The translations under genes were made by a program, and so were the position numbers. A DNA stretch of 37,112 bases from Candidatus Cloacimonetes bacterium HGW-Cloacimonetes-1 (GTDB lineage Bacteria > Cloacimonadota > Cloacimonadia > Cloacimonadales > Cloacimonadaceae). The notes under the pieces were generated by a model, which was given only the letters and a program-made list of their open reading frames with translations, was not told the DNA's origin and searched no databases. Location: positions 1 to 37,112 of the forward strand of contig PHBQ01000022.1 of NCBI GenBank assembly GCA_002841975.1, in the 5' to 3' direction. Of this stretch, positions 3,811 to 29,756 are shown one piece after another. Each line of letters starts with the position of its first letter. Positions within the stretch are counted from its first letter, which is position 1.

Positions 3811-5094
3811 ATGGTTAAAAAGATGGTTAAAAGCATGCTTGAAGCTGACCTTAAGGGAAAAGTAGTTTTAGTGAGATTGGACCATAATGTCGTGAAAGAT
3901 GGTAAGATCAAAGACCCAATGCGTGTCGATGCCACAATTCCTACCTTACTTCATATATTCAAAAAAGGGGGCTTACCGGTCGTAATGACTCATGTGGGAA
4001 GACCCTACGACAAAAAAACAGGGGAGATTGTAGTTTCAGAAGGTGAATCTGTCCAGCCAATAGTAGATTATTTGCATGCTAAACTTGATCTTGATTGCAT
4101 TGTTCCAGATTGCCAAATAGATGGAACTAAGGGGATTACAGATTATTCTTGTATAGAAAGCTCGATCCAACTGCTGAGAGAAGGGAAAACAGATCTTGTA
4201 TATCTTCCCAATACGCGTTGGTTCTGTGGGGAAGAAGCAAAGGATGATAGGGCAGACGTCATGGCAAAGAGTTTGGCAAAATATACGGATGTATTTGTCA
4301 ATGACGCTTTTGGTTCTTGGCAAGCTCATGCCTCTACCTACAATATTGCAAATTACCTGCCATCTTATGCAGGGCTACTTATGTGTAGAGAAATAACTCA
4401 TTTAGAGAGTGTGTTTGCGCCGCAACGTCCTATGCTTAGCATCGTTGCCGGTTCCAAGTTCGATACCAAAATCGGTCCCTTGTCTTCATTGATCCAAATC
4501 AGTGACTATCTGGTTTTGGGTGGTGTGATATACAACGCATATTTATGCTATAAGTATGGCGTAACTATTGCAGGTGTAAGCTCGGAAGACATCATTGCTG
4601 CAAAGCAGTTCATAGAAGATACTGCAGACTTCAAAGATAGAATTATAGAGTTGCCTTATATCATCGAATCTGATTCGTTTGAAGAGATTAAAATAGGTTC
4701 CTGGCGTGTTATCAATGTAGCAGATTTAAAGCCAGGTCAGAAGCTGAACTATGTCCTCGATGTGGCAATTGCCTCTGTGTCGGATGCTCGGATACAGGCT
4801 GTGTTTGCTGATGCCAAAACTATATTCATCAATGCAGTCATGGGCTATACGAATCTCTTCACGGAAGGAACAAAGGCAGTTTATAGCATGATAGATGATA
4901 ATATCGGAGCCCATAAACTGTTTGGTGGAGGTGATACGATTCAAGAATTTAAAGACCTTTTACCTGGGGTATATGCTAGGGCAACAATGAACAATCATTA
5001 TTACTTCTTCACTGGTGGAGGAGCTATATTAGATGCGATTGAAAAGGGATCTCCATACGAAATGAAGCCTGTGCAACTGCTGTTAAGAAAGTAA
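3811..5094 (+). CDS. pgk: Phosphoglycerate kinase, divergent
   Basis: This 427-residue enzyme moves phosphate between 1,3-bisphosphoglycerate and ADP in glycolysis or gluconeogenesis. Recognisable signatures are VRLDHNV (substrate Arg, Asp, Asn), THVGRP, YLPNTRWFCGEEAKDD, FVNDAFG..AHAST, AGSKFDTKIGPL (nucleotide-site Lys), GGGDTIQEF and FTGGGA. It differs from ordinary Pgk in several places. The usual FGTAHRAHAS is FGSWQAHAS, so the arginine that binds the 3-phosphate is absent. The C-terminal hinge region also has an insertion-like stretch (PGVYARATMNNHYYFFTGGGA). AGGAG overlaps the nuclease stop codon, eight bases before ATG 3811, so the two are translated from one message. A hairpin terminator follows at 5133. 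Assignment as Pgk is secure; full activity is an inference. Confidence 0.92.
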   Translation: MVKKMVKSMLEADLKGKVVLVRLDHNVVKDGKIKDPMRVDATIPTLLHIFKKGGLPVVMTHVGRPYDKKTGEIVVSEGESVQPIVDYLHAKLDLDCIVPDCQIDGTKGITDYSCIESSIQLLREGKTDLVYLPNTRWFCGEEAKDDRADVMAKSLAKYTDVFVNDAFGSWQAHASTYNIANYLPSYAGLLMCREITHLESVFAPQRPMLSIVAGSKFDTKIGPLSSLIQISDYLVLGGVIYNAYLCYKYGVTIAGVSSEDIIAAKQFIEDTADFKDRIIELPYIIESDSFEEIKIGSWRVINVADLKPGQKLNYVLDVAIASVSDARIQAVFADAKTIFINAVMGYTNLFTEGTKAVYSMIDDNIGAHKLFGGGDTIQEFKDLLPGVYARATMNNHYYFFTGGGAILDAIEKGSPYEMKPVQLLLRK

Positions 5095-5132
5095 TGAACC
5101 CGTTGTTAAAATTGTTGTAATCAAACTTATCT

Positions 5133-5157
5133 GGGCGAGAGAAGTCTCGCCCTGTTT
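5133..5157 (+). terminator. Hairpin terminator after pgk
   Basis: Perfect 8-bp stem GGGCGAGA / TCTCGCCC (5133-5140 with 5145-5152) with a GAAG loop, followed by the modest U-rich tail TGTTTGT. It closes the permease-nuclease-pgk run before the mut operon. Confidence 0.75.
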
Positions 5158-5292
5158 GTATCCTACCGGTCCGTATCGATTCTTTCGATAAATGAGGATT
5201 AGTAAAAGTCTTGAATCTGCCATCAAACAATCCCATATATGGTCGTACAGAGTGACCTGACAGGACAAAAAAAACTTGCCATATTTGCAGTC

Positions 5293-5320
5293 TTGAGATT
5301 GTTTGAAACGAAACTATAGT
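5293..5320 (+). promoter_or_regulatory. Sigma-70-like promoter for mutA-mutB-meaB
   Basis: TTGAGA (5293-5298) and TATAGT (5315-5320) are separated by 16 bp. A start point near 5327 would leave a ~29-nt leader containing the AAAGGAG ribosome site of mutA. The region 5153-5292 upstream has no gene; a small inverted repeat TATCGA/TCGATA lies at 5174-5190. Confidence 0.55.
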
Positions 5321-5355
5321 ATTTAATGAATAAAAAATAATAAAGGAGATTCGGC

Positions 5356-7467
5356 GTGGAACATGATGAAAAACCAAAGTTGAATCTATTGGATGAATTT
5401 CCCATTCCTACTTGGGAACAATGGCAAAAGGCTGTCATAGATACGCTCAAGGGCGTTGAATATGAAAAGGCAATGACCACCAAAACTTATGAAGGTATTA
5501 CTCTAAAGCCGATATACAGAAAAGAGGATACAGAGAATTTGCCACATTTAAACAGTTTACCCGGAAATGCTCCCTACGTCCGAGGAAATAGGAAAGAGGG
5601 GTATTTGACAGAAGCATGGAAGATCGCGCAATTACAGGACAATCCGGATATTGCAGAATTGAACAAGGAAATCTTGGCGGAGCTGAATCGTGGATTGAAT
5701 GCAGTGAACATTCAGCTTCATCGATCCACCTTACATGGTGCTAAACCAACTGTCTCTGAACAGCATACACGTGGGGTAGCTTTATCGTGTATGGAAGATT
5801 TATCTATCCTGCTCAAGGGCATAGATTTATCAGCTGTTCCAATATTTATCAAGGCAAAGAGTGCTGCCCTACCTATGATGGGCTTGTTAAATGCATATGC
5901 AAAAGATACGGATGTTTCACTTAAGGACTTGCATGGCTGCATTGGCTATGATCCAATTGCCGAGTTTGCAGAAAACGGATACGTACCATATTCGTGGGAG
6001 CAAAGCTGGCGCATGATGTCTCAGCTGGTCTTTTGGACAGATATGAAAGCACCCAAGATGAGGACAATCTGTATTGATGCTACCGTTTACGAACAGAGCG
6101 GTGCTTCTGCAGTTCAGGAAATAGCATTTGCCCTATCTACAGCAATTGGATATATCAAAGGTTTGATCGATAGTGGCTTGAGCATAGAACAAATAGCTCC
6201 CCGATTTCAGCTAAACTTGAGCTTGGGTTCCAATTTCTTTATGGAAATGGCAAAGATTCGAGCTGCCAGATTGGCATGGGCAGAGATGATTAAAGCCTTT
6301 GGAGGTGGGGAAAGCATCCAGAAAGTATGGATTCACGCAGAGACTTCCAAATTTAACAAAAGCATGTATGATCCGTATGTAAATGTGCTTCGAACCTGTA
6401 CTGAAGGGTTTTCAGGTATTATCGGTGGAATCGATAGCTTGGATTTGGGTACATTTGATGAACTCCATAACAAGCGTAACGAGTTCTCCAAACGCATTGC
6501 CCGCAACCAGCAGATAATCCTCCAGGAAGAAGCGCACTTTGACAGGGTGGTCGATCCTGTTGGTGGCTGTTTCTATGTCGAAACACTTACTGCTGAAATT
6601 GCCAAGAATGCTTGGGAACTGATGCAAGCTGTGGAAACCAATGGTGGAATGCTCAAAGCTCTTAACAATGGATTTGTCCATTCTGAGATCAAAAAGGTAG
6701 CTTCGGAGAGGATACTTAATGCTGACCGTAGAAAGGATGTATATGTCGGTGTAAACATGTTTGCCAATACTGATGAAACTAACATAAGCAATAATGCCAT
6801 CAATACGGATTGGTTCACCAAGAGTGTAGAACGCTGGCAGCAAAGTAACAATAAAAAAGGGCTTGATGAAAGCCTGACCTATATTGCTGAACACCGCGAC
6901 AATGATTTTATCATCGATATGATCACTGATGCGTGGATTCATCATGCAGATATCGAGCAAATCACAAATGCAATGGGTATTGATAGAACCAAAACAATTG
7001 CATGCCAAAAGCTGGAAATGCACCGTGCTGTGGAGCATATTGAAGCGCTGAGAACTGCTGTCGAAAAGCATAGCAAGACCAATCCGCTTTCTGTATTTAT
7101 GCTAAACATGGGACCGATATCACAACATAAAGCCAGAGCAGATTTTGCCTCGGCATTTATGCAAGTGGCGGGACTACGAATAATCAATAATCTTGGCTAT
7201 GAAGATACACAGACGGCTATTCAAGCCGCTCTGAATTCCGGTGCTCAGGCTGTGTGCCTCTGTTCAACGGATGATACCTATCCTGTGTTGGTTCCTGAAA
7301 TATGTTCCCAACTCCGGGGCAAGGGAGTAGCGATAGTTTTGGCAGGATATCCAGTAGATATGGTAGAAACCTACATACAAGCAGGGATTGATGTGTTCAT
7401 TCACCTCAAAGCCAATAATTATGATACCATGCTAGATCTTTGCAAAAGAATTGGAGTGAGATTATGA
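5356..7467 (+). CDS. mutA: Methylmalonyl-CoA mutase small (beta) subunit
   Basis: The product is a 703-residue protein aligning along its length with the small subunit of heterodimeric methylmalonyl-CoA mutase. It starts with the N-terminal dimer arm ([19 protein letters not shown]) and continues as the TIM-barrel domain, with [26 protein letters not shown] and KIWIHAETS-type segments visible. The last ~120 residues form a flavodoxin-like cobalamin-type domain, but the DxHxxG motif that ligates cobalt in the large subunit is missing, as expected for the non-catalytic chain. GTG 5356 is the start: AAAGGAG stands seven bases upstream. Its stop overlaps the mutB start (ATGA), indicating coupled translation and equal dosage. 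The partner enzyme uses B12 to interconvert succinyl-CoA and (R)-methylmalonyl-CoA. Confidence 0.93.
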
Positions 7468-9605
7468 AGCCGGATTTTACACGTATTCATCCCAAGTTCG
7501 AAGCCAGTGGTGCCGATAGAATCGATTTGAGTAAATATACTTGGCGAACTAATGAGCAATTAGACGTCAAACCTCTATATTGTGCTGAGGACAATCAGGA
7601 TCTCCAGCACGTGGACTACATGTCTGGACTTGCACCCTTTTTAAGGGGGCCATATCCTACCATGTATATTCAGCGACCCTGGACAATCCGTCAATATGCG
7701 GGATTTTCTACAGCAGAGGAAAGCAATGCCTTTTATCGTAGAAATCTGGCAATGGGGCAGAAGGGCTTGTCTATAGCCTTTGACCTTGCTACTCACCGCG
7801 GGTATGACTCCGATCATCCCAGAGTGACTGGTGATGTAGGAAAAGCCGGTGTAGCTGTAGATTCTATCCTCGATATGAAGATACTGTTTGATCAGATACC
7901 TTTGGATAAAATGTCTGTTTCGATGACCATGAACGGTGCAGTGTTGCCTATATTGGCATTCTATATAGTAGCTGCTGAAGAGCAGGGAGTAAAGTGGGAA
8001 CAGCTGACAGGTACGATTCAGAATGATATTTTGAAAGAGTACATGGTTCGGAATACCTATATTTATCCGCCGCTCCCTTCTATGAATATCATCGCAGATA
8101 TATTTAGCTTCTCCTCAAAGCACATGCCAAAATTTAACTGTATCAGTATCTCCGGATATCATATGCAAGAAGCCGGAGCTACTGCAGACCTTGAAATGGC
8201 ATACACTTTGGCGGATGGTTTGGAGTATATTCGTGCCGGGATAAAAGCAGGTATTGATATAGACGATTTTGCTCCCCGCCTCTCATTCTTCTGGGCAGAA
8301 GGCATGAATTACTTTATGGAAGTTGCAAAGCTGCGTGCTGCCAGAATACTGTGGGCGAAAATAGTAAAACAGTTTAATCCCAAGAATCCTAAATCGATGG
8401 CTCTCAGGACGCACTCCCAGACCTCCGGTTGGAGTTTAACGGAGCAGGATCCATACAACAATATCACCAGAACGTGTATTGAAGCCTTGGCAGCAACAAT
8501 GGGTCATACCCAATCCTTGCACACGAATTCTCTGGATGAGGCTATAGCCCTACCAACAGATTCCTCTGCCCGGATTGCTCGTAACACTCAATTGTACTTG
8601 CAACATGAAACATACGTAACCAAGGTTATCGATCCATGGGCTGGCAGCTGGTACTTGGAAGCTCTTACCAACGATTTGATGGAACGAGCCTGGCAGCATA
8701 TTGAAGAAGTAGAGGCCCTTGGCGGTATGGCAAAAGCTATAGAAACAGGACTCCCCAAAATGCGGATTGAAGAAGCTGCTGCACGCAAACAGGCTAAGAT
8801 CGATTCAGGAGCTGAAACAATTGTAGGCGTAAACAAGTATCGACTTGAAAAGGAAGATCCGATCGAGATTCTGGAAGTGGATAACTCTGCGGTTAGGGAA
8901 GCTCAACTAGAGAGATTAAAACAACTAAAAGAGAATAGAGACAACTCCAAAGTAAAATCTGCTCTTGACGCGTTGACAAATTGCGCAAGAACTGGTGAGG
9001 GTAATCTGCTCGAGTTGGCAATAATAGCCACCCGTGCACGAGCCAGCTTGGGAGAAATCTCCGATGCTTTAGAAATAGTGTACGGTAGGCACCAAGCCAC
9101 AATCCGTATGATCAATAATGTTTATAGTAGTGAGTATGCAAATATGAATGAAATAGATAGTGTGAGAAATCTCACTGACAAGTTTGCCGATCATGAAGGC
9201 CGACGTCCCAGGATTCTTGTTGCCAAGATGGGACAAGATGGGCATGACAGAGGTGCTAAAGTAGTATCCACAGCATATGCTGACATGGGTTTTGATGTGG
9301 ATGTAGGTCCTTTGTTCCAAACTCCGGAAGAAACCGCCAGACAGGCTGTGGATAATGACGTCCATGTCATAGGCATGAGCTCACTTGCGGCAGGACACAA
9401 GACACTCTTGCCACAGCTAATTGCAGAGCTAGAGAAGCTGGGCAGAGCGGATATAATGGTCATCGTGGGTGGAGTAATTCCTGCTCAGGATTATGACTAT
9501 CTATTAGCTCATGGAGCCACTGCTATATTTGGTCCCGGGACCAAGATTCCCTATGCAGCGAATATCATTATCACCGAATTAATCAATAGATTCGAAGTTA
9601 AATAA
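7464..9605 (+). CDS. mutB: Methylmalonyl-CoA mutase large (alpha, catalytic) subunit
   Basis: The 713-residue chain is nearly full family length. The N-terminal barrel carries [18 protein letters not shown], with the active-site Tyr at about residue 78, and [10 protein letters not shown] with the substrate-contacting His near 231. The C-terminal B12 domain has the complete cobalamin signature: GQDGHDRG (DxHxxG, about residues 590-596), MSSLAAGH (the SxL element) and VIVGGVIP (the GG element). This chain therefore carries catalysis: radical rearrangement of methylmalonyl-CoA to succinyl-CoA. ATG 7464 is preferred over an upstream in-frame start inside mutA because GGAG precedes it by seven bases. 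An epimerase and the biotin-dependent carboxyl-transfer enzymes of the pathway are not in the window. Confidence 0.96.
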
Positions 9606-9617
9606 GGATTGAGTATT

Positions 9618-9637
9618 GGGGGCTTTCACGAGCCCCC
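9618..9637 (+). promoter_or_regulatory. GC hairpin between mutB and meaB
   Basis: GGGGGCT and AGCCCCC form a perfect 7-bp stem with a TTCACG loop, 12 bp after the mutB stop and 7 bp before the preferred meaB ATG. There is no U-run, so it is more likely an mRNA-stability or expression-ratio element than a strong terminator. The nearest Shine-Dalgarno-like AAGGA (9604-9608) lies on its far side. Confidence 0.5.
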
Positions 9638-9644
9638 CTTGATT

Positions 9645-10739
9645 ATGAATACAAAAGACAGAAAGCCCGAATGGGTACCCCAAGATGCCGGAAAGGAATT
9701 CACTACCAATGTAATGCCCGGTCAAGCTGATGTGAGCAATATAAGCACCCGTAAGGTGGCTGCAATGAGATCAATTGATACCGATACGATTGTAAAAGGC
9801 GTACTTAGTGGCAATAGAACAATTCTTGCCAAAGCTATCACGCTGATAGAAAGCAATTCACTGCGTCATTTTGATCAAGCACAAGCCATTGTTAATGAAC
9901 TCTTACCATACTCTGGCAACTCTCTACGGATAGGCATTACAGGAACGCCCGGGGCAGGAAAAAGCACCTTTATTGAGAGCTTTGGGCTATGGTTGATCGA
10001 ACTGGGTCACAAAGTTGCAGTATTGGCAATAGATCCTAGCAGCAGTATCTCCAAAGGTAGTGTTTTGGGTGATAAAACAAGGATGGAAAAACTATCAAGA
10101 GCAGACGAAAGTTTTATTCGCCCTTCACCCAGCAGCGGAGTACTGGGTGGCGTAGCCCGTAAAACACGTGAAACTATTATCTTGTGTGAAGCAGCCGGCT
10201 ATGACATTATTCTCATCGAAACAGTGGGTGTCGGGCAATCTGAAATTACAGTCAGATCAATGGTAGATTTCTTCTGTCTCATGCAGATCAGTGGAGCCGG
10301 TGATGAATTGCAAGGTATAAAGAAAGGTATCATGGAACTTGCTGATTTGTTATTGATCAACAAGGCAGATGGTGACAATATTACCAGAGCCAATATCGCA
10401 GCACAAGAGCTCAACAACGCACTCCACTACTTGCAAGCAGCTACAGCAGGTTGGCAAACAAAAGCTATAACCTGTTCTGCATTACATCATATTGGCTTGC
10501 AACAGGTATGGGATTCGATCAATGAGTTTATGACAATAGTCAAAACCTCCGGTACATTTGAACAGCGAAGAAATCAACAAACAGTGGAATGGTTCGAGGC
10601 TCTTCTTACCGAGGCCGTAATGCGTAGATACCACGATAAAAAGGACTTTGCGCAAAAATACCATGCATTAAAAGACCTCGTAGCCAAAGTACAAATATCA
10701 CCAAGCTCAGCTGTGCATGAGTTGTTGGGATTGATGTAA
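9645..10739 (+). CDS. meaB: MeaB/ArgK-type G-protein chaperone of methylmalonyl-CoA mutase
   Basis: The product has 364 residues from ATG 9645. It is a P-loop GTPase of the G3E group with Walker A GTPGAGKS (100-107), AIDPSSSISKGSVLGDKTRM, ETVGVGQSE and the base-specificity motif NKAD. A helical tail ends ...SSAVHELLGLM. MeaB proteins gate loading and exchange of adenosylcobalamin and protect the mutase from inactivation, which matches its place directly after mutB. The start is uncertain: a TTG at 9609 is in frame, but that reading would translate the hairpin. ATG 9645 has no clear ribosome site; the residues after it (RKPEWVPQDAG) resemble N-terminal extensions of relatives. It converges with the phosphatase gene 44 bp away with no obvious terminator. 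Confidence 0.93.
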   Translation: MNTKDRKPEWVPQDAGKEFTTNVMPGQADVSNISTRKVAAMRSIDTDTIVKGVLSGNRTILAKAITLIESNSLRHFDQAQAIVNELLPYSGNSLRIGITGTPGAGKSTFIESFGLWLIELGHKVAVLAIDPSSSISKGSVLGDKTRMEKLSRADESFIRPSPSSGVLGGVARKTRETIILCEAAGYDIILIETVGVGQSEITVRSMVDFFCLMQISGAGDELQGIKKGIMELADLLLINKADGDNITRANIAAQELNNALHYLQAATAGWQTKAITCSALHHIGLQQVWDSINEFMTIVKTSGTFEQRRNQQTVEWFEALLTEAVMRRYHDKKDFAQKYHALKDLVAKVQISPSSAVHELLGLM

Positions 10740-22277: not shown

Positions 22278-23081
22278 ATGAAAATAAGCAAGTTAGCTCT
22301 CATGATTGCACTGGTCGTTTTGATACTTAGTGGATGCAAGGGTAAACAGGACACACAGAATTTGCCAGAAAACGAGACAACAAAACAGATTACTACTTTT
22401 GCCCCTCTACCATCTTTCAAGGAAGTTTTCCGTGCCCTGGATATGGTCGAATCAAAGAACATCGCACAAGCTGTTAATAAGCAGGTATTCTCTACAAAAC
22501 AGGATATCTCTCGTAATTCCTTCGCTCTTGGTTTATTGACCGCTGATGCTATCGTTGCATCTCGCAGTCACAACAAGAAAGTGATGATCGATATATCCAA
22601 TGAGATGATGAAGCTTACTCCATTATTAGGTTTGGATGAAGAAATCAATCGTCTTGGTGATGATATCAAGACAATGATCGACAAAGAAAAATGGGAAGAT
22701 ATGGAAAAAGCTCTTGATGCTCAGAAAGATCAAGTAGAAGCTAAATTATGGGAATCTGAAAGTTATGACAATTATACTTTGATGCTTTTGGGTGGCTGGA
22801 CTGAAGCTATTAATCGTGTATCCTATTTGATAGACTCGAACTATAGTGCTGACAAAACCAAGGTGCTCAACCAAAAAGGTACTTGGAATAGTTTGATGGC
22901 AAATTTGGACTTGATCAATTCTGAAGTAATTACCAAGGCATCCCACTTTGAGAATGCTAAAGTAAAGGTAAAAGAAATCAAATCGATAATTGATGCTGAT
23001 AATGCCGGCACATATACGCAAGAACAGCTCAAACAACTTATCAGTCTTACGGACAATATAAAAACGAATTTCCAAAAATAG
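22278..23081 (+). CDS. Lipoprotein of unknown function
   Basis: The precursor has 267 residues. MKISKLALMIALVVLILSGC is a clear lipoprotein signal with Cys20 as the lipidated residue; the following KGKQDT makes outer-membrane retention possible. The mature part is highly charged and predicted helical (KEVFRALDMVESKNIAQAVN, AKVKVKEIKSIIDADNAG), with no recognised domain. A very strong ribosome site (AGGAGG) precedes ATG 22278. It lies 9 bp behind the ABCG-type transporter and ends at a strong terminator, so it may be the periplasmic partner of that transporter; this is inferred from position only. Confidence 0.85.
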   Translation: MKISKLALMIALVVLILSGCKGKQDTQNLPENETTKQITTFAPLPSFKEVFRALDMVESKNIAQAVNKQVFSTKQDISRNSFALGLLTADAIVASRSHNKKVMIDISNEMMKLTPLLGLDEEINRLGDDIKTMIDKEKWEDMEKALDAQKDQVEAKLWESESYDNYTLMLLGGWTEAINRVSYLIDSNYSADKTKVLNQKGTWNSLMANLDLINSEVITKASHFENAKVKVKEIKSIIDADNAGTYTQEQLKQLISLTDNIKTNFQK

Positions 23082-23090
23082 ATCAGGAAG

Positions 23091-23120
23091 GACTCGGTGC
23101 CAAACACCGAGTCTTTTTTT
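23091..23120 (+). terminator. Strong intrinsic terminator after the lipoprotein gene
   Basis: GACTCGGTG and CACCGAGTC form a perfect 9-bp stem (23091-23099 with 23105-23113) with a CCAAA loop, followed by seven T (23114-23120). It ends only three bases before ATG 23124 of the next gene and contains the alternative GTG start at 23097. Confidence 0.9.
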
Positions 23121-23123
23121 TAT

Positions 23124-24236
23124 ATGAAAACAAATAGAATTCTATATTCCATTATTCTGTTGTCGTTGCTGAACGTATGCAAGATGAATGCAGTTCATGA
23201 TACCATGGTTCTGGACGTGCCCTGGGACAATGGGACTGCGCTGTCTATTAAAATTGATTATGAACCTATGTGGAAACACGTTATTTTAGAAAAAGCAGAT
23301 TCTAGTGGAGTATTTGTACCCTTAAGCGTGTTCTTTGAAGGACAGACAGAATACATTGATTCTGATGTGCTTGCAAACGCAAAGCAAATATACAGAATAT
23401 CAGCTTATACTTCTGATCGGAAAGATAGCTTAATAGTTGTCAAAGGCGGAGTCGCAACCGAGCAGTGGTTCTATATGGGCAAACTATCAATGTTGATACT
23501 GCTGGTATTGATCTGCACGGCTATCATGTACTTTATCTCTTTAGCAAGAAGGGGAAAAGCTCTATTTATCAGACGGATTAACGGACTTGATTCGATGGAT
23601 GAAGCAGTAGGTAGAGCCACAGAAAAAGGTAAGCCTATCCTATTCATTCCCGGCATTGGTGATCTTGATGATATCCAGACCATAGCAAGCCTTTCGATAT
23701 TGAGTCACTTGGCACAAAGATCGGCGGAGTACAATACAGATATCATAGTACCATGCAAATACTCTATGGTAATGTCCGCAGCTCGCGAAGTGGTTAAAGA
23801 GGCATATCTGAAAGTAGGAAAACCTGATGCATACAAAGAGCAGAACATTTTCTATTTGACCGATGATCAATTTGGATATGTTGCCGGAATAGATGGGATC
23901 ATGCTTCGAGAGCAACCGGCTGCAAACTTCTTTATGGGTTCTTTCTTTGCCGAATCATTGATCTTGGCTGAGACCGGGTTTAGCACTGGTGCCATCCAAA
24001 CTGCGGGCACTGCTCAAGCTCACCAGCTTCCCTTTTTTATAGTATCCTGTGATTATACCCTCATCGGAGAGGAGCTATTTGCCGCCTCAGCTTATCTTTC
24101 AAACGACCCACAGCAAATAGGTAGTTTAAAGGGACACGATTTTGGTAAGGTCATGCTGATTGTTTTGACCATTGCCGGAGTGATCTTTGAAATACTGGGT
24201 TTACATGGGTTCAAAAACTTTTTTACAGTTGGATAG
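23124..24236 (+). CDS. Unknown membrane protein with cytosolic-type domain (possibly DUF6754-like)
   Basis: From ATG 23124 the protein has 370 residues. It shows an N-terminal signal or anchor (ILYSIILLSLLNVC), a ~90-residue beta-rich exported domain and a membrane helix (LSMLILLVLICTAIMYFISLA). A ~190-residue alpha/beta domain follows (KPILFIPGIGDLDDIQT, TDIIVPCKYSMVMSAAREVV, AGTAQAHQLPFFIV), then a C-terminal helix (VMLIVLTIAGVIFEILGLHG). From memory it resembles the uncharacterised DUF6754 group, at low certainty. The start is ambiguous: GTG 23097 has the better ribosome site (AGGAAGG, five bases) but lies inside the terminator stem, while ATG 23124 has none. It heads a closely spaced run of membrane genes (6-bp gap to the next). 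Confidence 0.8.
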   Translation: MKTNRILYSIILLSLLNVCKMNAVHDTMVLDVPWDNGTALSIKIDYEPMWKHVILEKADSSGVFVPLSVFFEGQTEYIDSDVLANAKQIYRISAYTSDRKDSLIVVKGGVATEQWFYMGKLSMLILLVLICTAIMYFISLARRGKALFIRRINGLDSMDEAVGRATEKGKPILFIPGIGDLDDIQTIASLSILSHLAQRSAEYNTDIIVPCKYSMVMSAAREVVKEAYLKVGKPDAYKEQNIFYLTDDQFGYVAGIDGIMLREQPAANFFMGSFFAESLILAETGFSTGAIQTAGTAQAHQLPFFIVSCDYTLIGEELFAASAYLSNDPQQIGSLKGHDFGKVMLIVLTIAGVIFEILGLHGFKNFFTVG

Positions 24237-24242
24237 TGAGAT

Positions 24243-24941
24243 ATGAAACGAACAATACCATTGCTTATCACTTTCATAGTCGGTCTGATAGTTATTTCGT
24301 CCGAATTCATACCACATCGACCATTTAGTATGATAAACTCTACTTTAGAAAACTGGTATTTATCCATATCAGGATTTGCTATTGTTCTGGGATTATTGAG
24401 CCTAGTGCAGGTAAACTCGAGTAAAGTATATCATAAAGCCGAGAATTGGCAGTACTCACTGGCAAGCTTAGTGAGTCTAGTGGTTATTGTTATTTTTGGA
24501 GTACTTTGGGGTATGGAAGATCAGAGAGGTATTTTGGGTAATGGAGAAGCCATTTCGGCATTTATTGGAAAGAAACCCTTTGACTACCTGTTTGACAATG
24601 GCATCACACCACTGTCGTCAACGATGTTTTCACTGCTAGCTTTTTTTATAGCATCAGCTGCATATAGAGCGTTTATTATTAGGAGCTTTGAGTCAAACCT
24701 GTTGATGATCACCGCCGTGATAGTGATCCTAGGTAGAACCAGTTTTGGTCCCATGCTCACATCATGGTTGCCTAAGAGCCTTAGCTTTTTACACTTACCG
24801 AATCTTACAGATTTTATCCTGACATACCCTTCCTCAGCGGCGCAACGAGCAATTCTGATGAGTGCTTCCCTAGGCATTATAGGCAGTAGCCTCAGGATTA
24901 TCATAGGACTCGAAAGATCATACTTGGGAAGTGACGAATGA
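24243..24941 (+). CDS. Polytopic membrane protein of unknown function
   Basis: A 232-residue protein has six hydrophobic stretches, for example LLITFIVGLIVISSEFI, YLSISGFAIVLGLLSLVQV, SLVSLVVIVIFGVLWGM and FSLLAFFIASAAYRAFII. A short polar segment (EDQRGILGNGEAISAFIGKK) sits between helices three and four. I do not recognise a family. It starts 6 bp after the preceding gene and overlaps the next by 4 bp (ATGA), so it is part of the same membrane module. Confidence 0.8.
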   Translation: MKRTIPLLITFIVGLIVISSEFIPHRPFSMINSTLENWYLSISGFAIVLGLLSLVQVNSSKVYHKAENWQYSLASLVSLVVIVIFGVLWGMEDQRGILGNGEAISAFIGKKPFDYLFDNGITPLSSTMFSLLAFFIASAAYRAFIIRSFESNLLMITAVIVILGRTSFGPMLTSWLPKSLSFLHLPNLTDFILTYPSSAAQRAILMSASLGIIGSSLRIIIGLERSYLGSDE

Positions 24942-25768
24942 AGATTGATAGCCAAACCGAACGCCGGATCATCTTCATTGTGTTGTTTATAGCTGTCATG
25001 CTACCTTTGATCTTTCCTATCGGATGGACTTCAGAGGTCTCTCCCCACGTCCAAATGACCTATGATATGGTGGATAATACACCGGAAGGTTCCGTAGTAC
25101 TTCTCTCTTTTGATTATGATCCGTCAACAGCTACAGAGCTGCAACCGATGGCAATATCTCTGATTGAACATGCCTGGAAAAACAACCAAAGAGTCATTGC
25201 AACTGCTTTATGGCCAATGGGTGTAAAAATGGCAGATGCAGCATTTCAGGAGTTATTGCTAAAATACCCTTCCAAAGAGAGTGGAGTAGATTTTGTGAAT
25301 CTTGGTTACAAAACCGGTGGAATGGTTACTATTCAAGCAATGGGAAGAGATATGAAAAGTGTCTTCCCAACTGACACCAAAACCATTCCATATGAAGATA
25401 TTCCACTACTCAAAACCGTTAGATCTCTCAAAGACATCCAATTCGTGATTTCCTTGTCCGCAGGTGATCCGGGTATCAAGCAGTGGATAATGGGTGCGCA
25501 CGACATGTTTGGAGTAAAAGTAGCGGGAGGAACGACTGCTGTCAGTGCCCCCGGATTCCTTCCATACATTAATAGCCAGAATCAATTGTATGGCCTGTTG
25601 GGTGGTCTCAAAGCAGCTTCAGAATACGAACAGCTGCTGGGTATTGTGGGACCTGCTACTGTGAAAATGGATTCTCAATCTGTAGCGCATGTATTGATAC
25701 TGGTTTTTATTGCCATTGGAAATGTTAAAGCTTACAAAAAACGCAATAGCAAAAAGGAAGGAAAGTAA
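24938..25768 (+). CDS. Unknown protein with a soluble domain held between two membrane anchors
   Basis: The protein has 276 residues. A helix near the N-terminus (IIFIVLFIAVMLPLIFPIGW) and one near the C-terminus (VAHVLILVFIAIGNVKAY) flank a ~225-residue alpha/beta domain. That domain has strand-like pieces SVVLLSFDYDPSTA, QRVIATALWPMGVKMA and DIQFVISLSAG, then VAGGTTAVSAPGFLPYI and LLGGLKAASEYEQLLG. This order and the G-T-A...LP...L-x-AAS-x-Y spacing resemble the soluble domain of the protein at 23124 (AGTAQAHQLPFFIV, ELFAASAYLSNDPQQIG), so the two may be distant paralogues. No catalytic signature is recognised. The gene overlaps its upstream neighbour by 4 bp and its downstream neighbour by 1 bp. 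Confidence 0.8.
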   Translation: MKIDSQTERRIIFIVLFIAVMLPLIFPIGWTSEVSPHVQMTYDMVDNTPEGSVVLLSFDYDPSTATELQPMAISLIEHAWKNNQRVIATALWPMGVKMADAAFQELLLKYPSKESGVDFVNLGYKTGGMVTIQAMGRDMKSVFPTDTKTIPYEDIPLLKTVRSLKDIQFVISLSAGDPGIKQWIMGAHDMFGVKVAGGTTAVSAPGFLPYINSQNQLYGLLGGLKAASEYEQLLGIVGPATVKMDSQSVAHVLILVFIAIGNVKAYKKRNSKKEGK

Positions 25769-26406
25769 TGGTGAGTACCATGAGCGTGCTTGGAACCTGG
25801 ATAGGAGTTTTTTTCACTCTTAGCATCTTTAGTTTCCTCTTCAAAGACAATCCGTTTTACAAGTTTGCTGAACAAGTGTTTATTGGTTTGTCAGCCGGTT
25901 ATGGCCTGATTTACTTAATCTATAATGTGCTGATACCAAATTTGTTTCACAAATTGATCTTTGATTTTAGTCACAACGTGATCCTGCTCATACCAGCAAC
26001 ACTGGGATTGATGATGCTTTTGCGTCTGATCCCATCTTTGCAATGGCTCAGTAAATATCCGCTCGCAGTAGTGATAGGAACCGCTGTAGGAATCAGCATG
26101 CTACGCTATATGCAATCGGATTTTCTCAACCAGTTAACTGCTACGATGATCAATCCATTGGCTGGGGCTACAAAAGTTGAGATAGTAGGAAACTTCCTTT
26201 TGATAATAGGTACAATCTGTGGCATATACTTCTTTTACTTTAGCCGCAAGAAAGAAGGGATATACTCGGTGCCATCCAGAATCGGTATCTGGTTTCTCAT
26301 GATCAGTTTTGGAGCATCATTTGGCTATACAGTTATGGCACGTGTATCTCTGTTAATCGGCCGTCTTGACTTTCTGCTCAAGGATTGGTTACACATCATC
26401 AAATAA
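25768..26406 (+). CDS. Polytopic membrane protein of unknown function
   Basis: A 212-residue protein has six hydrophobic stretches (TWIGVFFTLSIFSFLF, FIGLSAGYGLIYLIYNVL, VILLIPATLGLMMLLRLI, LAVVIGTAVGISMLRYM, NFLLIIGTICGIYFFYF, IGIWFLMISFGASFGYTV) and little soluble mass. ATG 25768 overlaps the preceding stop by one base, with AAGGAAGG upstream; a second ATG twelve bases on is possible. I do not recognise the family. Its length and helix count parallel the 24243 protein, giving the module a pattern of soluble-domain protein plus polytopic protein, twice. Confidence 0.8.
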   Translation: MVSTMSVLGTWIGVFFTLSIFSFLFKDNPFYKFAEQVFIGLSAGYGLIYLIYNVLIPNLFHKLIFDFSHNVILLIPATLGLMMLLRLIPSLQWLSKYPLAVVIGTAVGISMLRYMQSDFLNQLTATMINPLAGATKVEIVGNFLLIIGTICGIYFFYFSRKKEGIYSVPSRIGIWFLMISFGASFGYTVMARVSLLIGRLDFLLKDWLHIIK

Positions 26407-26416
26407 AGAGGATAAT

Positions 26417-27949
26417 ATGATTCAACTTCATCATCGCTTCATACTCTCAGCGAAAAAGAACATTTCCAAAATAGCCGTAATTGATAGAGCAACCAACACA
26501 GAATACACCTATGGCAGGATGCTGATAGCTTCCCTAATATTAAAAGAGCATATATGTAAAATGCCTGGCAAATACTTGGGTATCATGCTCCCAACTTCTG
26601 CAGGTTGTATGCTAGCCATCCAGAGTACTTTGATGTGTGGTAAGATCCCGGTTATGATAAATTATGCTACTGGAGCTATGGAAAACTCGATGTATGCCCG
26701 TGATAAATGTAATTTTAAAACTATCATCACCAGCAAGAAATTACTGGATAAACTAGAACTCAAACCTATTGATCACATGATATACATAGAAGATATACTG
26801 GCTAAAGTAACTGTTCTGGCAAAGCTCAAGGCAGCTCTGATCTCAAAATTGCCATATAAAATACTCACCACAATGATTCATAGTGGATCCACAGATGAAG
26901 TGTCTGTAATTCTTTTTACAAGCGGTAGCGAGAAAGAACCCAAGGCGGTGCAACTGACTCATAAAAACATATTGCACAATGTGAACACCGTTCCACAGAT
27001 TATTGATGTCAACTCTGAAGACCGTTTTATATCCATACTTCCCTTTTTCCACGTGTTTGGTCTCACAGTCAATTTCTGGCTTCCTATATGCCTAGGATGC
27101 ACTATAGTTACATATCCCAATCCGCTGGACTACAAAGTGGTTAGTAACATTGTAAGAGATTACAAACTTACGGTTATCACGGCAACACCTGCATTCTTCT
27201 ACGGTTATCTCCAAAAATCTGATCCCGGAGATTTCTCAAGCATTCGTTATGCAATTGCAGGAGCAGATAAATTGCCGCAAAAAGTCTATGATGGATTCAA
27301 GAAAAAACACAATATCCAAGTATTTGAAGGTTATGGAACTACTGAAACAAGTCCCGTGATTTCTACAAATACTCCTACTTTCCAAAAGTTAGGCAGTGTA
27401 GGAAAACCACTCCCCGAGATCCAAGTTCGTATTTTGGACGCTCAAACAGATAAGGTACTCGGGCCTACTCAAGAAGGAAAAATCATGGTTCGGGGTGACT
27501 TGGTGATGCTGGGTTATCTGGGTGATCTGGAAGAGACATCACTACGCATCCGTAACGGTTGGTATGATACAGGTGATATCGGCATGATAGACGAAGATGG
27601 TTTCCTTTGGCACAAAGGCCGTCTCAAACGCTTTGTGAAAGTAGGTGGGGAGATGGTGTCCCTGGTCAAAGTTGAGAGCTTACTGAGTGGCTTGCTTCCT
27701 GAAGATGTTATTTGCTGTGTAGTCGATGTTCCCAACGAAATCAAAGGCGCTGATGTGGTAGCCGCTGTCGCAAACGGTAATTTTGATATGCACGCAGTCC
27801 TGAAAGCGCTCAAAAAGGAGCTACCTGCTATTGCCGTCCCCAAACAGTTTTACGTCATAGACGACATTCCGATGATGGCGAGTGGTAAAGTGAATTTCAG
27901 AGAAGTTGAAAAGATCTGTCGTGAAAAAACCGCAAAGAAAGAAAAATAA
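26417..27949 (+). CDS. AMP-forming acyl-ACP/acyl-CoA synthetase (Aas ligase-like)
   Basis: This 510-residue adenylate-forming enzyme has the A3 phosphate loop FTSGSEKEPKAVQLTH, PFFHVFGLTVNFWLP, the A5 motif GYGTTETSP, the A7 motif YDTGDIG, the A8 hinge WHKGRLKRFVKVGGEMVSL and the A10 lysine in ASGKVNF. The PFFHVFG and VGGEMVSL wording is close to the ligase half of Aas (2-acyl-GPE acyltransferase/acyl-ACP synthetase), but no acyltransferase domain is attached. It would activate a fatty or other carboxylic acid with ATP and load it onto ACP or CoA. ATG 26417 follows AGAGGA by a short spacer and is 10 bp behind the membrane module, so it probably belongs to that operon. This suggests the module handles an acylated or lipid substrate (inference). 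Confidence 0.9.
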   Translation: MIQLHHRFILSAKKNISKIAVIDRATNTEYTYGRMLIASLILKEHICKMPGKYLGIMLPTSAGCMLAIQSTLMCGKIPVMINYATGAMENSMYARDKCNFKTIITSKKLLDKLELKPIDHMIYIEDILAKVTVLAKLKAALISKLPYKILTTMIHSGSTDEVSVILFTSGSEKEPKAVQLTHKNILHNVNTVPQIIDVNSEDRFISILPFFHVFGLTVNFWLPICLGCTIVTYPNPLDYKVVSNIVRDYKLTVITATPAFFYGYLQKSDPGDFSSIRYAIAGADKLPQKVYDGFKKKHNIQVFEGYGTTETSPVISTNTPTFQKLGSVGKPLPEIQVRILDAQTDKVLGPTQEGKIMVRGDLVMLGYLGDLEETSLRIRNGWYDTGDIGMIDEDGFLWHKGRLKRFVKVGGEMVSLVKVESLLSGLLPEDVICCVVDVPNEIKGADVVAAVANGNFDMHAVLKALKKELPAIAVPKQFYVIDDIPMMASGKVNFREVEKICREKTAKKEK

Positions 27950-28003: not shown

Positions 28004-29722
28004 ATGAAACCTATAGAGTTAATTTGCACGATAAATCCATCAACTATCAGTGTTGAACAGTTGGTAAATTTTAAAGCAGCGGGAATGACAATTGCCCGGA
28101 TTAATGCGTCACACTCCGACATTGAAGAAATATCTTCGCTTGTGTCCATGATTCGCAGCAGCATTGATCGTGAGTCTATTAAAATAATGCTAGATTTACC
28201 GGGTCCTGAGTATCGTTTAACCGGATATGACAAAACACTGAGAATCAAAGCTAATGATGAGTTGATACTGGTTCCCAAAGAGTTTGTACCTACTGATGAG
28301 ATTCAGGCTCTACAAACAGATTACCCCGTCTTTGGCATGCCAAACATGACCGGTAGAACCGTTTTGTTTATGAATGGAGAGCTGCGTTCTATCATTACTT
28401 CCGCCGGAATCGATCAAATCAAAATCCAGTTTCTGAATTCCGGAGCTTTGAGAACCAATGCCCATATTAAAATCAATGACGTACACCACGAGATCCCATA
28501 TATCAGTGCTTATGATCGAAGTTTAATAGACTATGCAGTATCAGAACGAATAGAAATGTTAGCTATATCAATGGTTCGCGCTGCGAGCGATGTGCGGGAC
28601 GTCATCGCATTGTTAAATCAATCCTCACAGAAACCTACGCTTGTGGTCAAATTTGAAACACTGGAATCAATACAGGATCCTGAATCGATTATCTCGCTTG
28701 GAGATGCCTTCTTTGTAGCCAGAGGTGATTTAGGCAATGATGTAAATCCTGTCTCGATTCCGATGCTCCAGAAAGAACTGGTCAGTCTATGCAATAGCTA
28801 CGCCAAACCTGTATATATTGCCACCCAGATGATGAGTTCTATGCAACGCTCTCCGTATCCCACCAGAGCCGAGATCTCGGACGTCGCAAATGCTGTATAT
28901 GAAGGCTGCGATGGTATCACACTTTCCGAGGAAACGGCAGTGGGAGATTATCCGCTCGAAGCTGTTAGGTTAGCACGTGAGATTATAGACTACACAGGGT
29001 CATATTCTTTCTCTGTTCAAGCGCTAGAACCTATCTTTGAACAGGTAATGAATACTGTGTCCCTAAAACCGATAATTTCACATATCCAAGATGTTGCAGA
29101 GCGGATTTGGCACAACGGTTGGGCAGAGGCAAATGCGGGAAACATATCTTGGAATGTCACGGCCCAAATCACTTCACTGCTCGAACTCTTCGAGGAACTA
29201 TCCGAATATCAACACTTCTATATTGTTTCCAAAACGTGCTCTCGTTACAGAGACATTGCACGTGACCCGCTATCCAATCTCATCCTTGTGGCAGTGAATG
29301 AAGACAGTACAGCTTACTATCCCCCGAATCGGGTACCAACTTCAGAATGGATTTCACACCTCAGCATTCACCAGTATCTGCGTGCCGCAGGAAGAGATGA
29401 AACTGTGATTTTACATGCACATCCCACTTCGATTGTGGTACTATCCCAACTTCCGGAGTACGACCACGGCGTGGATTTATCTCAATTCCTGCCAGAACTA
29501 AAGATCTACTTACCGGGTGGAATAGGGTTCACTTCGTACTCTGAACCGGGCTCTGTGGAATTGTCTCGCAAGAGCATCGAGTCTCTTCCAAATAGAAAGA
29601 CGATCATCTGGCAGAAGCATGGTATATTGTGCTTCGGGAAAGACATCGACGAAGCATTTGACTATCTGGAAATAGTAAACAAAGCGGCAGATGTATTTCT
29701 AAATCTAAAGAAGTTGATATAA
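28004..29722 (+). CDS. Fusion of pyruvate-kinase barrel with RhaD-like class II aldolase
   Basis: A single 572-residue frame holds two enzyme domains. Residues 1-~340 match the A and B domains of pyruvate kinase: ICTINPS, ARINASHS (R32, N34, S36), LDLPGPEYR (D64, R71), VVKFE (K216, E218), ARGDLG (D242), ATQM (T274) and PTRAEISDVANAV. The spacing of these residues is very close to bacterial PykF. The usual T-K after D64 is L-P. The pyruvate-kinase C-terminal allosteric domain is absent. Residues ~350-572 match class II aldolases close to rhamnulose-1-phosphate aldolase: GNISW (379-383), FYIVSKT, PTSEW (E448), HAHPT (H471, H473), PGGIGF and WQKHG (H539), the zinc-binding set. It could join phosphoenolpyruvate/pyruvate chemistry to a retro-aldol step, or the barrel may be regulatory. 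It starts 54 bp after the acyl ligase. Confidence 0.9.
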   Translation: MKPIELICTINPSTISVEQLVNFKAAGMTIARINASHSDIEEISSLVSMIRSSIDRESIKIMLDLPGPEYRLTGYDKTLRIKANDELILVPKEFVPTDEIQALQTDYPVFGMPNMTGRTVLFMNGELRSIITSAGIDQIKIQFLNSGALRTNAHIKINDVHHEIPYISAYDRSLIDYAVSERIEMLAISMVRAASDVRDVIALLNQSSQKPTLVVKFETLESIQDPESIISLGDAFFVARGDLGNDVNPVSIPMLQKELVSLCNSYAKPVYIATQMMSSMQRSPYPTRAEISDVANAVYEGCDGITLSEETAVGDYPLEAVRLAREIIDYTGSYSFSVQALEPIFEQVMNTVSLKPIISHIQDVAERIWHNGWAEANAGNISWNVTAQITSLLELFEELSEYQHFYIVSKTCSRYRDIARDPLSNLILVAVNEDSTAYYPPNRVPTSEWISHLSIHQYLRAAGRDETVILHAHPTSIVVLSQLPEYDHGVDLSQFLPELKIYLPGGIGFTSYSEPGSVELSRKSIESLPNRKTIIWQKHGILCFGKDIDEAFDYLEIVNKAADVFLNLKKLI

Positions 29723-29727
29723 AAATA

Positions 29728-29756
29728 GGGGGCGGGCGCCCCCCGTGTGTGTGTGT
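29728..29756 (+). terminator. GC hairpin with a GT-repeat tail after the fusion gene
   Basis: GGGGGC (29728-29733) pairs with GCCCCC (29738-29743) across a four-base loop, 6 bp after the stop codon. In place of a T-run there is (GT)6 at 29745-29756. It probably ends transcription between convergent genes, though the tail is atypical. The GT tract is also a small microsatellite. Confidence 0.55.

Follow-up and report, generated by a model that had tools for sequence, protein, structure and literature searches.

A pyruvate kinase barrel and a class II aldolase joined in one reading frame in a family of the Cloacimonadota

The fused protein described in this work resembles the pyruvate kinases (PKs) PykF and PKM in that complete A and B domains and the residues for PEP, Mg2+, and K+ are in place, but it differs from them in the absence of the C-terminal allosteric domain, in a number of changed lid and interface residues, and in the aldolase that is attached to it. 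The aldolase half shares with RhaD and 1pvt the three zinc histidines, the PTSE acid/base motif and the GWxExNxGN loop; unlike RhaD, it scores under the rhamnulose-1-phosphate aldolase cut-offs and the rhamnose pathway is missing from the genome. The joining of a class II aldolase to a second enzyme is also seen in PRK08324, a fusion with a short-chain dehydrogenase; however, the partner in that case is a different one and the match of PRK08324 to the fused protein is weak (13 bits). A further comparison is provided by Ald2, the aldolase of the DHAP shunt, a route known from other bacteria and also put forward for methanogens (PMC10986504; PMC6079011; PMC6302742). The aldolase considered here is found in similar genomic company, viz. 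mtnA, a deaminase-like gene and purine nucleoside phosphorylase (PNP), with no ARD. However, Ald2 has been likened to MtnB-annotated proteins (PMC6302742), whereas the Cloacimonadota aldolase is of the RhaD-like subgroup and is not clustered with mtnA.

The DNA that was analyzed (hereafter the window) is a stretch of 37,112 nucleotides from Candidatus Cloacimonetes bacterium HGW-Cloacimonetes-1, a member of the Cloacimonadota, a phylum that is common in anaerobic digesters. The genome from which it derives (2.78 Mb) is 99% complete. At one end of the window (3811–10739), a gene for phosphoglycerate kinase is followed by two methylmalonyl-CoA mutase genes and MeaB, an arrangement that fits propionate metabolism. 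The best explanation that we can offer for the gene which is the subject of this work is that it encodes a two-headed metabolic enzyme, with a PK-family barrel and a zinc-containing class II aldolase in one chain; taken as a whole, we regard this explanation as an even call.

The fused gene and its relatives

The fused gene at 28004–29722 (+ strand) is an unbroken ATG-to-stop frame that encodes 572 aa. It had been described, in an earlier sequence-only reading, as a PK barrel joined in a single frame to a RhaD-like aldolase, and both the ORF and the Pfam results bear out this description. The PK profile PF00224 matches residues 4–321 (28013–28966, +; profile positions 4–328 of 328; E 5.5e-71), which include the B (lid) domain, and PF00596 (Aldolase_II) matches residues 361–565 (29084–29698, +; profile positions 3–182 of 183; E 2.8e-24, 86 bits against a cut-off of 22). 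For either of these profiles a chance match is negligible. The PF00224 match ends at residue 321 and the aldolase, of the RhaD/1pvt-like kind, starts at about residue 353. No Pfam match to the PK C-terminal domain was found anywhere in the 572-aa protein. The residues that had been named (R32, N34, S36, K216, E218, D242, T274, D64-L65-P66, G379-N380-I381-S382, H471, H473, and H539) are likewise all found at the positions assigned to them. Just 3′ of the stop codon lies a G+C-rich, terminator-like hairpin (29727–29744), which was recognized by a pattern match alone and was placed by the scan on the minus strand.

A search for relatives with the same domain order, which had been proposed as a check, confirmed that the fusion is real. 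Among 125 genomes of the phylum it is present, in a syntenic place, in three further genomes, viz. G031 (39% identical), G033 (34%), and G028 (33%), all of which are members of a second genus (g7) in the Cloacimonadota family of the window genome. Counting the window genome, the fusion is thus known from at least four genomes, and these represent two or more genera within a single family. In the fused gene of G031 (L032:12726-12815), no ATG, GTG, or TTG is present before the first PK strand, which is itself conserved in frame, and this gene may start at ATC or contain a sequence error. The combination of a PK barrel with a class II aldolase was found neither elsewhere in the scanned collections nor in the literature searched, and no record in the plasmid and phage collections spanned both halves. 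The alignment-based contig scan made use of the exact patterns MLDLPG[PHY]E and IW[QHA][RN]GWAE, and its reach beyond the phylum is limited; the genome-wide statements made here rest on family searches. The domain combination is a conserved and apparently unreported one, which is built from two known kinds of enzymes. As PADLOC gave no match, a role in defence is without support.

Across the four fused proteins, R32, N34, S36, D64, R71, K216, E218, D242, T274, and E310 are invariant, as are the zinc ligands H471, H473, and H539 of the aldolase together with E448. The sole residue named in the sequence-only reading that varies among them is I381, which is I or V. Based upon alignment to RhaD, we take E448 to be the acid/base residue, and N377/N380 and S447 to constitute the phosphate site. 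An AF2 model of the fused protein, for which the input was an alignment of 56 sequences consisting of the window protein and its relatives, has a mean pLDDT of 93 and a pTM of 0.65, and the only stretch in it with a pLDDT below 50 is residues 336–341 (29009–29026, +), which form the core of a flexible linker. We read this model as predicting two domains, each well formed, that are connected by a flexible tether, with no confident prediction of their mutual orientation. In a Foldseek comparison with solved structures, the best matches listed were all PKs, with alignments of 352–398 columns.

Origin and condition of the pyruvate kinase half

Phylogenetic analysis of the PKs placed the four fused barrels together on long branches (support 95/89), within a set supported 100/99 whose other members were three barrel-only PKs from family f3. 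When either one of the two fused groups was left out, the remaining one still joined the f3 barrel-only PKs (99/99 and 98/94). The AU test rejected a tree in which the fused barrels grouped with their own family's full-length PKs (p 0.0004). The PK half thus groups with proteins that are already barrel-only, and the earlier suggestion of an allosteric domain replaced by the aldolase is not supported. By the same test, an origin of the fusion through loss of the C-domain from a full-length PK of the family is rejected. An origin of the window protein from an f3-like PK, separate from that of the g7 proteins, was not rejected (p 0.32), and hence either one or two fusion events may have occurred.

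Additional information is provided by rabbit position 117, which is Glu in the fused and f3 barrels and Lys in the full-length PKs of the family; the residue at this position distinguishes K+-dependent PKs from K+-independent ones (PMC4374775). Taken together, the tree, the AU test and this signature point to a parsimonious history in which a barrel-only PK became joined in front of a resident aldolase. The f3 proteins (L010, L013, and L023; 329–335 aa) are similar to the fused barrels in possessing Glu117 and lacking the C-domain, but they are standalone, occur in other gene neighborhoods, and retain the lid and interface residues that are missing from the fused barrels. In the barrel-only PKs of another family, f10 (L024, L029, L031, L059, L060, and L065), the same position is occupied by Arg (DLEGYRIR or DLEGFRIR), and thus by neither of the residues, Glu and Lys, that mark the two main clusters.

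Judged from its sequence, PK catalysis by the fused barrel is plausible. We infer, with moderate confidence, that the PK half would bind Mg2+/K+ and PEP/pyruvate and would act as an independent, non-allosteric, K+-dependent catalyst of the PK type (PEP + ADP → pyruvate + ATP). The change of T-K to L-P after D64 had been taken as a hint of altered phosphoryl transfer. However, the full-length PKs of the family also read DLPGPKxR, so this change is an ordinary one, and one of the two characterized PK clusters often has Leu113 (PMC4374775). Other conserved features, viz. the lid residues 124/125, F190, Q275, and the TRAE motif, have been lost in some or all of the fused proteins, with both Q275 and the TRAE motif gone in two g7 members, and given these changes PK catalysis may be in decay. 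In place of the D-G at positions 124–125 and the KKGVNLPG-type loop of the B domain, the window protein contains N124 and the lid loop TNAHIKIND, and two of the g7 proteins contain G-S; the loop is also variable in the f3 proteins and in some full-length PKs. The other PKs of the phylum share 62 conserved columns, of which 47 are retained by the window protein and 32–37 by the g7 proteins; three of the 62 fall in the C-domain that the fused proteins lack. The PF00224 scores are 337–380 bits for the full-length PKs of the family, 242 for the window protein, and 136–160 for the g7 proteins, and the score of the fused protein with TIGR01064 (pyruvate kinase) is 278.6 against a cut-off of 306.4. 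With the exception of the G033/G028 pair, the PK halves of the fused proteins are 28–41% identical to each other, and the branches of the fused PK domains in the tree correspond to 1–2 changes per site.

Any match to a PK barrel was found in 10 of the 50 family genomes, in one case as a fragment, and neither G033 (99% complete) nor G028 has a PK barrel besides the fused one. Full-length PPDK was present in nine of the 10 genomes tested, and the Cloacimonadota are reported to use PPDK for this step (PMC13082233). As PPDK is present in nearly all of the genomes tested and most of the family genomes are without a PK, the PK step is dispensable.

These results bear upon the alternative that the PK half is a degenerating or repurposed barrel that senses PEP/pyruvate or provides the aldolase with a structural and oligomerization module, which we regard as a serious, albeit tentative, possibility. 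The rapid divergence evident from the long branches and falling PF00224 scores, the stepwise loss of conserved lid and interface residues, and the deletion of the barrel in a genome that kept the aldolase (G032; see below) are all consistent with it, but the metal- and PEP-binding residues have been retained in the four fused proteins and in the closest pair the two halves have equal dN/dS. For this pair (G033 vs. G028), the dN/dS is 0.129/1.061 (~0.12) for the PK half and 0.120/0.913 (~0.13) for the aldolase half, and these low values indicate that both halves are under purifying selection there; they concern the g7 pair and say nothing directly about the window protein. Our preferred reading is that of an independent catalyst of the PK type.

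The aldolase half and its candidate pathway

The solved structures that are nearest to the aldolase half by sequence (phmmer) are 1pvt (E 1.3e-32) followed by RhaD 1gt7 (3e-19), and its best NCBIfam aldolase match is to rhamnulose-1-phosphate aldolase (PRK03634/NF002963). It is on these resemblances that a function as a rhamnulose-1-phosphate or fuculose-1-phosphate aldolase could be based, which we nonetheless consider unlikely. The score with PRK03634 is 160 bits against a cut-off of 170, that with TIGR02624 is 94 against 401, and the aldolase falls below the NCBIfam cut-offs of every named aldolase. Moreover, RhaA was detected in none of the 50 family genomes and an FGGY kinase was not detected in the window genome, with positive controls found in both cases. 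The rhamnose and fucose routes are therefore unlikely, the link to rhamnulose-1-phosphate that had been suggested earlier is not supported, and the aldolase half is probably not a RhaD in function.

Each family genome with a PF00596 match contains one such gene, which in G010 is present as two pieces on two contigs. The gene mtnA is found in 46 of the 50 family genomes, and in the window genome (L117:5947-8339, both genes) it is directly followed by an amidohydrolase related to 5′-deoxyadenosine/MTA deaminases, although this deaminase-like gene misses its curated cut-offs. Among 14 further stretches (L119–L132), an ORF caller that took the longest frames recovered this pair in 12. The two exceptions are G022, which has the deaminase and an mtnA that is hidden by a spurious overlapping frame, and G014, where the contig ends. 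PNP is present, and ARD, the dioxygenase of aerobic methionine salvage, was detected in none of the 50 family genomes. The mtnA and deaminase-like genes, which are often followed by a conserved gene of ~144 aa, probably constitute an anaerobic 5′-dAdo/MTA salvage operon; no description of such an operon for the Cloacimonadota was found in the literature searched. The aldolase gene itself lies outside the mtnA operon. Two other roles for the aldolase were considered and rejected: that of a missing FBP aldolase, as a class II FBA is present, and one in aerobic methionine salvage, as there is no ARD.

On the basis of this genome content, viz. a sole class II aldolase, the mtnA/deaminase-like pair, PNP, and the lack of ARD, we infer fairly strongly that the aldolase half acts at the end of an anaerobic DHAP shunt, as its terminal aldolase. 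In such a pathway, 5′-deoxyadenosine/MTA would be converted by the deaminase, purine nucleoside phosphorylase and MtnA into 5-deoxyribulose-1-phosphate and/or 5-methylthioribulose-1-phosphate, and Zn-dependent retro-aldol cleavage of the 5-deoxy(methylthio)ribulose-1-phosphate would then yield DHAP and an aldehyde.

Locus history and the joining of the two halves

Upstream of the fused gene, at 22278–26406 (+), is a set of genes identified by synteny and Pfam, which encode a 267-aa protein, a DUF6754 protein and three proteins without a Pfam match. This set is kept together across the family and marks the locus as equivalent in related genomes. Directly upstream, at 26411–27949 (+), is a conserved neighbor, an AMP-binding acyl-ACP/CoA synthetase (PF00501), to which 70–77% identical neighbors are found in many related genomes. 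All four fused genes sit behind common upstream genes (the DUF6754 protein and its companions), and G031 also shares with the window locus the AMP-ligase upstream of the fused gene. In most of the other family genomes, the aldolase is present alone at the equivalent locus, as a protein of ~210–255 residues that is 33–47% identical to the C-terminal half of the fused protein.

A third state of the locus is found in G032, which is closely related to G028 and G033. The aldolase in this genome (L051:9608-10372) starts with MRKIDLIATFNSSQ, which is the N-terminus of the fused PK, and continues directly with TVDQIQQKLDEK, the end of the PK part; the counterparts of these scar ends in G028 are MRKIDLIATFGSSQ ... 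QIVSQVQQKLAEK. As both ends of the PK have been kept around an in-frame deletion, the barrel was once present and was later lost, and these sequences indicate that fusion preceded loss in this part of g7. No PK remnant was found upstream of the other standalone aldolases (that of G049 included), G032 being the only case, and hence gain and loss are indistinguishable elsewhere. Under parsimony, the fused state requires at least three changes on the neighbor-gene tree and at least four on the aldolase tree. The aldolase is the resident gene of the locus, and the barrel is its variable part.

With regard to why the two halves are joined, we propose that the tie to the aldolase would serve mainly for shared assembly and expression, with association taking place through the aldolase oligomer, and not for channelling. 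A bifunctional enzyme in which PK-type chemistry and DHAP-shunt cleavage are coupled, e.g., with the aldolase oligomer replacing the C-domain for assembly or control, seems to us rather doubtful. Channelling or cross-regulation, in which the PK site is supplied or governed by what the aldolase produces or by a sugar phosphate, would fit with the retention of the covalent link over the deep split between two genera, but we consider it quite improbable. Several steps of glycolysis lie between DHAP and PEP; since they are not adjacent metabolites, no metabolite being common to adjacent steps, and relatives manage without the link, channelling is unsupported. The flexible linker and a pTM of only 0.65 predict no fixed interface, the domains separate in evolution, and the fact that G032 has lost its barrel speaks against obligate coupling. 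Lastly, although the relatives that carry the fusion are metagenome-assembled genomes, an assembly join or annotation artefact has a negligible probability, as four separate assemblies contain the same fusion and synteny, and the identity of 33–39% between the window and g7 proteins indicates that the four fusions are not copies of one error.

With its three states (fused, standalone, and scarred intermediate), this one locus represents a natural experiment on domain fusion. The DHAP-shunt reading would assign a specific role to the family's only class II aldolase, and it hints at an anaerobic disposal of 5′-deoxyadenosine/MTA. If the coupled reading were true, the disposal of radical-SAM by-products would be tied to the supply of ATP and pyruvate in these syntrophic bacteria.
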